A stretch of DNA of 64,000 nt from Desulfoplanes formicivorans. Lineage in GTDB: Bacteria > Desulfobacterota > Desulfovibrionia > Desulfovibrionales > Desulfomicrobiaceae. The stretch lies in contig NZ_BDFE01000016.1 in the NCBI RefSeq assembly GCF_001748225.1, positions 186,001 to 250,000 of the forward strand, given 5' to 3'. Below, piece after piece: positions 14,725-21,604 of the stretch. Below the pieces are notes generated by a model. It searched no databases. It was not told the DNA's origin and worked only from the letters and a program-made list of their open reading frames with translations. Each line of letters opens with the position of its first letter. Position 1 is the first letter of the stretch. The translations under genes were made by a program, and so were the position numbers.

Positions 14725-16827
14725 ATGGCAACAGCAAACCCTTCCTTCAAGATTGATTACGCCAAATTTGCCAAGCAGGGTGACCTTCTGCTGGCCGGCG
14801 GCGTGGTGGTCATCCTCTTCGTCATGCTCATCCCCATGCCGACGATGGTCCTTGACGTCCTGCTGGCCTTCAACATCTCGTTTGCCCTGGTCATTCTGGT
14901 CACCTCCATGTTTCTCAAGTCACCTTTGGAATTCTCCATTTTTCCCTCCCTGCTGCTGGTGACCACCCTGCTTCGCCTGGGTCTCAACATCGCCACAACC
15001 CGGGTCATCTTGCTCCACGGCAGCGAAGGAACGGCCTCGGCCGGCAAGGTCATCCAGGCCTTTGGGCAATTTGTGGTCGGTGGCAATTACGTGGTGGGTG
15101 TGGTCATCTTCCTCATTCTCTTCGCCTTGAACAAAATGGTCATCACCAAAGGCACCACCAGAATCGCCGAAGTGGCGGCCAGATTCACCCTGGACGCCAT
15201 GCCGGGCAAGCAGATGTCCATTGAGGCTGATCTCAATTCCGGCCTGATTACCGAGGAAGAAGCCAAGAACCAACGCAACGACATCCGACGGGAAGCTGAC
15301 TTCTACGGAGCCATGGACGGTGCGGGTAAGTTTGTCGAAGGGGATGTCATGGCCGGCATGCTCATCACGGCCATCAACATTATCGGCGGGCTGTTCATCG
15401 GTGTTCTCCAACAGGACATGTCCTGGATGGATGCGGCACAAACCTACACCCTCCTGACCATTGGTGACGGTCTTGTCTCCACCATCCCGTCCATCATCAT
15501 TTCCACATCTGCAGGCATCATTGTCAGCCGGGCCGCTGCCAGCGCCAAGATGGGCGAAGAATTCATTGCTCAGCTGACTTACCAGCCACGTGCTCTGCGC
15601 CTGGTTGCAGGCGTATTGCTCCTGTTCGCCCTGGTTCCGGGCATGCCCACCGTGGCCTTTCTGGTGATTGCCAGCGCTCTGTTCGTGCTGGCCCGGATAG
15701 GACCGGATTCCAAGGCGGCCGAGGAAGCCGAGGCCAAAGCCAAGGCCAAGGCAAAACCGAGTCTCGACAGCCCCGAAGAGGTCAGGTCACTGCTGCCTCT
15801 GGACATCATGGAACTGGAAGTGGGATACGGCCTCATCCCCCTTGTGGACGAAGAGCAAAACGGCAACCTGCTTGCACGCATCAGGTCCATTCGTCGCCAG
15901 TTTGCCCTGGACATGGGGGTCATAATCCCGTCCCTGCACCTGCGTGACAACCTGGAATTGAAACCCGGGGAATATGCCCTGCTCATCAAGGGCAACAGAG
16001 TGGGACAGGCCGAGATTCTCATCGATCATCTTCTGGCCATGGATCCGGGCGATGCCAAGCACAAGATCAAGGGCATTGAAACCCTGGAACCCGCCTTCAA
16101 CCTGCCTGCCGTCTGGGTGCCGGAAAGTCGGAAAGAGGAAGCCATGGTTGCCGGTTATACGGTGGTGGATCCCTCTACGGTCATAGCCACGCATTTAACA
16201 GAGATCTTCCGACGCAATCTCCACGAATTCCTGGGACGTCAGGAAGTCCAAAACCTGCTTGACAATGTGGCCCAACGATCACCCAAGGCCGTGGAAGAAC
16301 TTGTTCCTGGAACCCTGACCCTGGGGGCCGTGCAAAAGGTCTTGCAGAACCTGGTACGCGAAAATATCTCCATCAGGGATATGCTGACCATTGTCGAAGC
16401 CCTGGCTGATTTCGGTCAAAGCATCAAGGATCCCGATCAGCTCACGGAATTTGTTCGCCAACGCCTAGCCCGAACCATTGTCAAACCCTATATCGGCCCG
16501 CAAAGCGGGACTCTTTCCATCATCAATCTGGGTGCGGATATTGAACAGGAATTCCAGTCCAGTCTCCGTCAAACCGATCAGGGTACGTTTCTGGCCATGG
16601 ATCCGGGCATGGCCCAGAAAATCATCAAGGCCATCAACCAGGCTGCTGAAAACGCCGTGGCCGCCGATGGTCAGCCTGTTTTGCTCACAAGTCCGCAGAC
16701 ACGGCCACACCTTGCACAACTTGTTACCAGATTCATTCCGACCCTTCCTGTCATTTCCCAGGCTGAGATTCCCGCCGAAATCCGGCTGGAATCCCTTGCA
16801 ACCGTGAGTCTGAACAATGCACGTTAA
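14725..16827 (+). CDS. flhA: Flagellar export gate protein FlhA
   Basis: This 700-residue protein has eight TM helices in the first 330 residues and a large cytoplasmic C-domain that forms a nonameric ring docking chaperone-substrate complexes. The cytoplasmic loop between TM helices 4 and 5 carries the conserved FHIPEP-type block, here RFTLDAMPGKQMSIEADLNS. The length is standard. Its last 11 bases overlap flhF. The start has no obvious Shine-Dalgarno; the leader is C/A-rich. Confidence 0.98.
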   Translation: MATANPSFKIDYAKFAKQGDLLLAGGVVVILFVMLIPMPTMVLDVLLAFNISFALVILVTSMFLKSPLEFSIFPSLLLVTTLLRLGLNIATTRVILLHGSEGTASAGKVIQAFGQFVVGGNYVVGVVIFLILFALNKMVITKGTTRIAEVAARFTLDAMPGKQMSIEADLNSGLITEEEAKNQRNDIRREADFYGAMDGAGKFVEGDVMAGMLITAINIIGGLFIGVLQQDMSWMDAAQTYTLLTIGDGLVSTIPSIIISTSAGIIVSRAAASAKMGEEFIAQLTYQPRALRLVAGVLLLFALVPGMPTVAFLVIASALFVLARIGPDSKAAEEAEAKAKAKAKPSLDSPEEVRSLLPLDIMELEVGYGLIPLVDEEQNGNLLARIRSIRRQFALDMGVIIPSLHLRDNLELKPGEYALLIKGNRVGQAEILIDHLLAMDPGDAKHKIKGIETLEPAFNLPAVWVPESRKEEAMVAGYTVVDPSTVIATHLTEIFRRNLHEFLGRQEVQNLLDNVAQRSPKAVEELVPGTLTLGAVQKVLQNLVRENISIRDMLTIVEALADFGQSIKDPDQLTEFVRQRLARTIVKPYIGPQSGTLSIINLGADIEQEFQSSLRQTDQGTFLAMDPGMAQKIIKAINQAAENAVAADGQPVLLTSPQTRPHLAQLVTRFIPTLPVISQAEIPAEIRLESLATVSLNNAR

Positions 16828-17878
16828 AACCTATCAGGGCACAACAACCAGCGAGGTCATGGCCGAAATCAAACAGGATCTCGGTCCTGACGCCGTTATC
16901 CTGAGTTCGCAAACCAAAACCGTGAACGGCTGCAAAATCTGTGAAATCATGGCCGCCCTTGAAAGCGATCCCGGCGCCCAAACCAATGGGAATCCTTTGC
17001 CTACCGTCGATCAGCCACCCTTTGACTGGCAGACCATGCAAAGGGAATGGATGGAGCTTCGCGAGCAATGTCTGAGCGTTCTGCGTCCGAAAATGGACCT
17101 GGAGCTGCTCCCCTCCAAACACCGCCAGGTCATCCGATATCTGGACAAGGAAGGGGTTTCTTCTCCGTGTTTGTTTACCATCTGGAAACGACTGGTCGAA
17201 AACGCCGATCGTTCGGCCTTGCGTGTTCTCGGCGACCTCCTTCCCATTACCGCATGGAAGACAAAAGCCCCCCAAAACACAGTGCACGCCCTGACCGGAC
17301 CCTACGGATGCGGCAAGACCAGTACTCTCCTTAGAATGGCACTAGGCGTGAAAAAGCATAACCCTTCGGCACGAATCTGTATTGCCAATGGGGATCACTA
17401 CCATAGCAAAGGGCGACTTTTTCTCAAACATTATGCAGATATATCAGGTTTTTTCTACCGAGATCTCACAACGGATGCCGACTGGAGAGAGATTATCGAA
17501 CATAAAGCCCAGTACGATACCGTGCTCATCGACCTTCCGGGCCTGAACAAAGGGCAATCCATGGCCGCATGGATGGAGGCCGAATGCCCGGGCATCAGCA
17601 GTGCCATCAGGTATCATCTCGTCCTCAGCCCTCTGTACGCATCGTCCCAACAAACCGCGTTCGTCAACCGCTTCCGCATGCCCAACACAACCAGCATCAT
17701 CTGGACGAAGCTCGACGAAGCATGTACATTCGGTGACCTCGTGAGTCAGAGTTATGCCACGGGATTGCCCATCTCGCTCTTTTCCTTTGGTCCTGGCATC
17801 AGAAACACCATTGCCGAAGCATCTCACAAGGATGTATGGCGATTGCTTTTTAAACACCAACTTCCAGCGGCCCGATGA
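16817..17878 (+). CDS. flhF: FlhF-like SRP-family protein with degenerate GTPase motifs
   Basis: FlhF, with FlhG, sets where flagella form. This 353-residue homologue has the family N-terminus (VKTYQGTTTSEVMAEIKQDLG), a Gln/Glu-rich linker and an NG domain. G1 is GPYGCGKTS (161-169, normally GPTGVGKTT) and G4 is TKLDE (297-301), both usable. The G2 region, normally DxYRIGA, reads DHYHSKGR. G3, normally DTAGR, reads DLPGL (239-243). Nucleotide binding may persist but hydrolysis is doubtful. Identity is firm from position between flhA and flhG; activity is an open question. It overlaps flhA by 11 bases. Confidence 0.9.
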   Translation: MHVKTYQGTTTSEVMAEIKQDLGPDAVILSSQTKTVNGCKICEIMAALESDPGAQTNGNPLPTVDQPPFDWQTMQREWMELREQCLSVLRPKMDLELLPSKHRQVIRYLDKEGVSSPCLFTIWKRLVENADRSALRVLGDLLPITAWKTKAPQNTVHALTGPYGCGKTSTLLRMALGVKKHNPSARICIANGDHYHSKGRLFLKHYADISGFFYRDLTTDADWREIIEHKAQYDTVLIDLPGLNKGQSMAAWMEAECPGISSAIRYHLVLSPLYASSQQTAFVNRFRMPNTTSIIWTKLDEACTFGDLVSQSYATGLPISLFSFGPGIRNTIAEASHKDVWRLLFKHQLPAAR

Positions 17879-17977: not shown

Positions 17978-18793
17978 ATGAACGGCAACCTCCCATTGGT
18001 ATTTTCAGTGACATCCGGCAAGGGTGGCGTCGGCAAAACAAACATTTCGGTCAATCTCGCCTATCACCTCCACAAGCTCGGCAAACGGGTCATCCTTCTG
18101 GATGCCGATCTGGGATTGGCCAATGTGGATGTTCTTTTGGGACTCGCCCCCGCCTATAACCTGTTCCATCTTTTTCACGAGCAGATTCCCCTTGAAAAAA
18201 TTCTGTACAAAACCAAGTACGGATTTTCCATCCTTCCGGCAGCCTCCGGAGTCAGCTCCATGATGTCCCTGTCAACGGGACAGAAGCTCGAACTTCTGGA
18301 ATCCATGGATTTTCTCGAAGACACCACTGACTTTCTCATCGTGGACACAGGGGCAGGCATCAACGACAATGTCTTGTACTTCAACCTGGCGGTGCAGGAG
18401 CGCGTGGTCATCCTTACTCCCGAGCCAACGTCCCTCACCGATGCATACGCATTGATCAAGGTTCTGAAGCTGGGTCATGGTCTGGAGCATTTCCGCGTCA
18501 TTGTGAACATGGTCAAGGATATTAAGGAAGCAAAGGGGGTGTTCGCAAAACTCTATGAGGCCTGCGATCATTTTCTCAGCGGGGTCTCCCTGGACCTTGC
18601 CGGATTCATTCCCCTAGACCCGGGAGTCCGCAAGGCAGTGACCGAACAGGTCCCTTTTTCCCATTACGCACCCACATCTCCGGCAGCTATCCATGTAGCC
18701 CAGGTGGCCCAAAAAATCACCACGTGGAAAACACCTCGACGACTTGACGGCAACATCAAATTCTTCTGGAAAAAGCTTCTTTTCAATGAATAA
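17978..18793 (+). CDS. flhG: FlhG/FleN MinD-like ATPase
   Basis: This 271-residue ParA/MinD ATPase has the deviant Walker A SGKGGVGKTN near residues 12-21, the switch region LLDADLGLANVDVLLG and DTGAGIND. It limits flagellar number by acting on FlhF and, in some species, FleQ-type regulators. The N-terminal DQAxxLR helix that activates FlhF GTPase in Bacillus is not visible before the P-loop, which fits the degenerate FlhF upstream. ATG 17978 is chosen for AAGGAA about 7 bases upstream; an in-frame ATG at 17939 adds 13 residues. The 40 bases at 17881-17920 contain no G. Confidence 0.93.
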   Translation: MNGNLPLVFSVTSGKGGVGKTNISVNLAYHLHKLGKRVILLDADLGLANVDVLLGLAPAYNLFHLFHEQIPLEKILYKTKYGFSILPAASGVSSMMSLSTGQKLELLESMDFLEDTTDFLIVDTGAGINDNVLYFNLAVQERVVILTPEPTSLTDAYALIKVLKLGHGLEHFRVIVNMVKDIKEAKGVFAKLYEACDHFLSGVSLDLAGFIPLDPGVRKAVTEQVPFSHYAPTSPAAIHVAQVAQKITTWKTPRRLDGNIKFFWKKLLFNE

Positions 18794-21187: not shown

Positions 21188-21604
21188 ATGTCATCCTTTC
21201 AATGGCTCATCATTCTATCGGGACTGTTTGAAATCGTTCTCATTGCGATCATTGTTGTCATTTTTCTCAAACTGCGCAGATCCCAATCACTTATCCTCCA
21301 ATTGCAGAATAAGCAGGAAGATTTCCTGGCCCGCCTTGATTTCAATGCCAAGCTCGAACAGGAACTGGTCACCAGCTTTGAAGAACGCCAAAAGCAGTTG
21401 AGCCGTCTTGATGCCCGTCTGGAGCAACGAGCCAACACCCTGCAGGGACTTCTGGAACAGGCCGACGCCTTTACCCATTCACCTGCCTTTTTGAAACAGA
21501 CGGTCCTTACCGGCTACCGGCGCGGCCAATCCATTGAGGCGCTAGCCCGGTCCACCGGGTTGAGCATGGACGAGATTGAAGTCATCATCGAACAGGAAGG
21601 CTAG
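21188..21604 (+). CDS. Membrane-anchored coiled-coil protein with C-terminal HTH-like end
   Basis: This 138-residue protein has one N-terminal TM segment (residues 7-28), then a coiled coil (30-90), then GYRRGQSIEALARSTGLSMDEIEVIIEQ. That C-terminal pattern resembles the helix-turn-helix-like tail of DUF2802/DUF6115-type proteins often encoded near flagellar genes. No enzyme motif is present. It is one base and a stop away from the next small gene. Exact role unknown; a scaffold at the cell membrane is possible. Confidence 0.68.
   Translation: MSSFQWLIILSGLFEIVLIAIIVVIFLKLRRSQSLILQLQNKQEDFLARLDFNAKLEQELVTSFEERQKQLSRLDARLEQRANTLQGLLEQADAFTHSPAFLKQTVLTGYRRGQSIEALARSTGLSMDEIEVIIEQEG

Follow-up and report, generated by a model that had tools for sequence, protein, structure and literature searches.

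The window, a 64,000-nucleotide stretch of the Desulfoplanes formicivorans genome, carries a run of flagellar genes in the order flhA, flhF, flhG, fliA, a cheY-like gene and a fliL-like gene, with flhA and flhF overlapping by 11 bases, consistent with an operon. The features considered here are given below. Counts of relatives refer to 131 distinct FlhF sequences of the order Desulfovibrionales, drawn from five families, and represent distinct sequences rather than independent events.

14725..16827, + strand: flhA, matching TIGR01398 at 891 bits, above the cut-off
16817..17878, + strand: flhF of the divergent Desulfovibrionales type, 353 amino acids
16817..16960, + strand: FliG-interaction domain (FID, as defined in PMC11236974), FlhF residues 1-48, conserved in the alignment
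17297..17320, + strand: G1 motif (P-loop) GPYGCGKT, residues 161-168, kept; K167 occurs in 126 of 131 relatives
17393..17416, + strand: G2 segment DHYHSKGR, residues 193-200; Asp kept, arginine finger (position 196) changed to His, with a clade-specific GKGR-like element
17531..17545, + strand: G3 motif DLPGL, residues 239-243; DxxG kept, Thr-Ala and Arg lost
17705..17719, + strand: G4 motif TKLDE, residues 297-301, kept; D300 and E301 occur in 131 of 131 relatives
17789..17800, + strand: G5 motif GPGI, residues 325-328, in place of GQxV; the ribose-contacting Gln is lost (Gln at 326 in 0 of 131 relatives and 23 of 24 outgroup sequences)
17978..18793, + strand: flhG, a MinD-type ATPase that lacks the N-terminal DQAxxLR enhancer helix; Walker motif SGKGGVGKT intact, probable start at 17978
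21188..21604, + strand: FipA-like membrane protein, candidate FlhF partner; N-terminal transmembrane segment, coiled coil and DUF2802-like C-terminus

The flhF reading frame is unbroken. Its product matched the FlhF model TIGR03499 with an E-value of 1.2e-33 and 117.4 bits, short of the curated cut-off of 174.15 bits, and contains an SRP54 GTPase domain (E=2.6e-13). The protein is therefore described as a divergent FlhF and not as a standard equivalog, an assignment that rests upon fold, FID and synteny, the neighbouring flhA, flhG and fliA being in keeping with flhF. An AlphaFold2 model computed with 41 relatives reached a pLDDT of 90.7, with one disordered linker at approximately residues 50-70. 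The best PDB matches to this predicted model in Foldseek were the FlhF structures 8r9r, 2px3 and 2px0 (rmsd 2.8-3.5), which together with the SRP54 match indicates an NG domain of SRP type. The N-terminal FID, modelled as beta-alpha-beta-beta, is among the best-kept parts of the protein, and M1, T5, G23, A26, I28 and L29 are invariant in the alignment. FID and NG fold, P-loop, DxxG and TKLDE are common to the window protein and the FlhFs of Shewanella putrefaciens and Bacillus subtilis (PDB 8r9r, 2px0/2px3), at about 22% identity in the fold comparison.

A second flhF had been suggested as something to look for. In the window genome, rated 100% complete, no second, classical copy was found: two strong SRP54-family matches had scores typical of Ffh and FtsY, and the protein search yielded one FlhF only. 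A pseudogene or frameshift was discounted by the open frame and by purifying selection in relatives. On balance, the window protein is probably a functional FlhF, the only one in this Desulfomicrobiaceae-like genome, and a member of an order-wide FlhF variant.

The original prediction held that G1 (GPYGCGKTS) and G4 (TKLDE) are kept while the DxYRIGA segment has become DHYHSKGR and G3 is degraded. Alignment bore this out for G1 (the fuller string occupying residues 161-169), for G4 and for the altered G2 segment. Degradation of G3 proved only partial: DLPGL stands in place of DTAGR with loss of Thr-Ala and Arg, but DxxG, the Mg2+ and water element, is kept as DLPG. The losses also run wider than had been stated. 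Set beside FlhFs whose structures are known, the window protein has His196 at the G2 arginine finger (for its role see PMC10910532 and PMC6092412), Phe202 at the G2 Gln (AAxEQL), Leu243 at the G3 Arg and Pro326 at the G5 Gln, the residue that contacts the ribose in S. putrefaciens FlhF (PMC10910532). P-loop Lys and Thr, the G2 and G3 Asp, DxxG and TKLDE are retained. Of the hallmarks of an active SRP-type GTPase, the G1 P-loop and G4 [NT]KxD are thus present, and the G2 DxxR arginine finger and its Gln are absent (DHYH, and Phe for Gln). This sets the window protein apart from the S. putrefaciens and B. subtilis FlhFs in arginine finger, EQ, G3 Arg and G5 Gln, although S. putrefaciens FlhF also lacks the G3 Arg, having Met there. 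Drift in G3 need not abolish hydrolysis, since Campylobacter jejuni FlhF(T368A), a G3 change, has activity only about 2-fold lower (PMC6282759).

Full-length orthologues with 30-45% identity were found in most of the 150 genomes of the order searched, and comparison with many Desulfovibrionales FlhFs, which had been advised as a check, revealed the same positions altered in 131 distinct sequences. On the hydrolysis side, the G2 Gln, G3 Arg and G5 Gln each occur in 0 of 131; on the nucleotide-binding side, the P-loop Lys occurs in 126, the G3 Asp in 127 and the G4 Asp and Glu in all 131. Among 24 FlhFs from other classes of the phylum, the G2 Gln was present in 24, the G5 Gln in 23, the G2 Arg in 23 and the G3 Arg in 17. 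With the same positions altered in 131 orthologues, as against a G2 Gln in 24/24 and a G5 Gln in 23/24 outside the class, the changes are far beyond chance. As judged from the aligned sequences, motif loss is a property of the whole order and not of the window genome alone. The window sequence does have a long end branch, as might be seen had the motifs of an ordinary FlhF drifted in one genome, or were the gene decaying or the sequence in error. However, the frame and operon are intact, the same changes recur in 131 relatives of five families, and full SH-aLRT support separates the divergent clade from 10 outgroup rows; such an origin is highly improbable, and the order-wide alignment refutes it.

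Loss of the G2 Arg is not universal. It is present in 58 of 131 sequences, all from Desulfovibrionaceae, and absent from 73, being missing from every other sampled family; in the tree, all members that have it are nested within Desulfovibrionaceae (family f5). Loci of this family such as L027, L060, L070 and L102 carry the arginine as DxxRGxGR, a family-only form that was either retained or regained. Across the order the segment follows the pattern D-x-x-[QRH]-G-K-G-R-L-x-L-[RK]-H-Y, in which G199 and R200 are nearly invariant (R200 in 120 of 131), K198 occurs in 85 of 131 and H205 in 70 of 73 representatives sharing less than 90% identity. Judged by alignment, the GKGR element would lie in the nucleotide pocket. 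A loop so conserved could belong to a rebuilt, active GTPase in which [Q/R/H]GKGR replaces the DxYR...EQ machinery, either with no need of the FlhG helix or with a different activator. The near-invariant G199 and R200, the frequency of K198, the retention of D193, D239 and the P-loop, and a mostly polar residue three positions past the G2 Asp (R 58, Q 49, H 13 of 131) are consistent with this, as is loss of the GKGR Lys in the same three clades that have lost P-loop or Asp residues. However, the place of that Lys can be taken by N, H, G or Q where the P-loop is intact, the G3 Arg, G2 Gln, G5 Gln and FlhG helix are gone throughout, and some lineages persist without the P-loop Lys. We consider a rebuilt enzyme unlikely.

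Those three clades belong to different families and occupy separate places in the FlhA tree. The P-loop Lys is gone in L087/L106 (family f1) and L109-L111 (family f2), and the G2 and G3 Asp in L086/L107/L108 (family f5); the G3 Asp is also lost in L201. Pairwise dN/dS within the clades was approximately 0.16-0.36 by simple counting, with one pair saturated at synonymous sites. As dN lies well below dS, indicating purifying selection, their flhF genes are working genes, and nucleotide binding seems dispensable, at least in these three clades. By extension, the window FlhF might no longer bind GTP usefully and serve as a nucleotide-free scaffold whose kept motifs only hold the fold. G4 TKLDE is still largely present where the P-loop Lys or G3 Asp is lost, and the G5 ribose contact is missing from all members, both of which agree with a scaffold. 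Against this, a P-loop Lys in 126 of 131 and a G4 in practically all sequences over a deep tree are hard to explain without bound nucleotide, and for the window protein a mere scaffold appears quite improbable. It is possible, and is advanced tentatively, that the order's FlhF is no GTPase switch at all, that in at least two clades it does not bind nucleotide and that number and release are controlled by other parts.

FlhG had been predicted to lack the FlhF-activating N-terminal helix, which contributes a co-catalytic Gln (PMC12826062). The prediction stood: no DQAxxLR was found in the window FlhG even with the frame read back to the upstream stop, in which it differs from the S. putrefaciens and B. 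subtilis systems, nor upstream of the Walker motif in any of the 127 loci with a divergent FlhF and a readable FlhG. The motif is present in all in-order genomes found to have a classical FlhF. Retention of SGKGGVGKT suggests that the ATPase role of FlhG is intact. In the phylum sample, DQAxxLR or a close variant was present in 15 of 24 genomes, all 15 with an FlhF G2 Arg, and absent from nine, eight of which still have that Arg. Helix loss therefore permits but does not force erosion of FlhF and was discounted as a sufficient explanation. By itself it proves little, since it is found in these nine phylum members and in FleN, the FlhG homologue of Pseudomonas (PMC12713375). The FlhF of Pseudomonas, unlike that of the window, is reported to conserve its G1-G5 motifs and to have a GTPase activity that can be measured.

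Taken together, these data favour an FlhF that, throughout the order, keeps the fold and the FliG tether, probably binds GTP and has been uncoupled from FlhG-triggered hydrolysis; we regard this as rather more probable than otherwise. FlhF would retain the FliG-binding FID, the NG fold and most GTP-holding residues while missing the canonical SRP-type hydrolysis residues, and would act as a tether that is GTP-bound or constitutively 'on'. The FID would grip FliG/FliF and the NG domain the pole, perhaps via the FipA-like protein. Control of release and of flagellum number would then fall to the FlhG ATPase cycle, competition by FliM/N or protein turnover, with FlhG-triggered GTP hydrolysis serving neither. 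As most of the cutting residues and the FlhG trigger are gone, flagellar placement in the order probably proceeds without GTP hydrolysis. The original prediction had suggested as much, and the suggestion fits the catalytic-side losses in FlhF, the FlhG helix loss, the single flhF and a GTPase-dead FlhF mutant of Vibrio that still places flagella. It must be qualified by a binding shell that is mostly kept and a G2 Arg in 58 of 131; the charge of GKGR could serve a rebuilt site, and another factor might activate the window FlhF.

Tethering without hydrolysis has precedents. S. putrefaciens FlhF links FliG, via the FID, to a polar landmark, via the NG domain, apparently independently of nucleotide (PMC11236974). 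In Vibrio alginolyticus, FlhF(R334A) is devoid of GTPase activity, yet the polar flagella are normal, although the majority of GTP-site mutants are impaired (PMC6092412); the principle of a hydrolysis-free FlhF is therefore already known. The window counterpart of R334 is His196. Loss of the G2 arginine is common to the order and to the laboratory mutants V. alginolyticus FlhF(R334A) and Pseudomonas aeruginosa FlhF(R251G), but these are single engineered changes with FlhG intact, whereas that of the order is natural and multi-site and includes the activator. Desulfovibrionales FlhF looks, by this analogy, like a natural counterpart of R334A, with the binding shell kept and the hydrolysis side dismantled in both partners. 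The current model holds the FlhF-FlhG GTPase circuit to be a conserved switch (PMC12826062). No natural, order-wide GTPase-dead FlhF was found in the papers searched, and a search that mostly stopped short of subscription papers found no literature on FlhF mechanism in Desulfovibrio; a published description of Desulfomicrobium baculatum mentions a single polar flagellum (PMC3035215). The field has not settled why hydrolysis matters, as mutants differ between species. In this order the experiment seems to have been run by evolution: the residues for hydrolysis have disappeared along with the activator, those that hold GTP for the most part remain, and in some lineages even the latter have gone. 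Natural proteins thus offer a direct test of which of the two, GTP binding or hydrolysis, FlhF requires, if either.

The FipA-like gene lies downstream of flhAFG-fliA-cheY-fliL. FipA is a known FlhF partner of gamma-proteobacteria encoded near flhAFG (PMC11620751), and both the position and the single-transmembrane architecture of the window product are compatible with such a protein. The gene is conserved over the order and lies downstream of flhF in relatives whose loci extend that far. Matches to PF10975 were weak, occurring in 18 of 24 members with a best value of 5.3e-5, and the window member scored 16.8 bits against a cut-off of 33.5. Its product is a plausible remaining partner of FlhF. 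The FimV_Cterm model (HubP/FimV) had no match in the window genome, but it matched only one of 14 control genomes, below the cut-off, so its silence says little about HubP/FimV.

The TIGR03499 cut-off was passed by one of 199 genomes of the class (G006), a bearer of classical FlhF. Five genomes within the order (G006, G033, G038, G043 and G013; loci L095-L099) have a classical FlhF with a DQAxxLR-bearing FlhG. Their FlhA falls outside the FlhA clade of the order, for which reason simple ancestral retention was discounted; the whole flagellar module was probably replaced by transfer, the divergent FlhF type being the order's own. This history is moderately firm, the FlhA tree being a quick build with long branches flagged. 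Elsewhere in the phylum, profile matches fall from about 430 bits to below 160 and motifs are classical, except in family f34 (L193, L195-L199). This is a second, separate lineage of eroded FlhF, in which the G2 Arg is Lys (DTYK/DNYK), G3 reads DTPxx and the FID is intact; its pattern differs from that of the window in that G4 TKxDE has become TFxDK or TFxDR. The FlhG of L193 lacks DQAxxLR. A contig titled Geobacter (L064) encodes an FlhF of Desulfovibrionales type together with an FlhA match whose branch is very long, and is probably a mislabelled MAG or carries a partial or paralogous FlhA frame. At L188 (G507), the FlhA-matching open frame spans 1399 codons, about twice the usual length, suggesting a fusion or read-through.
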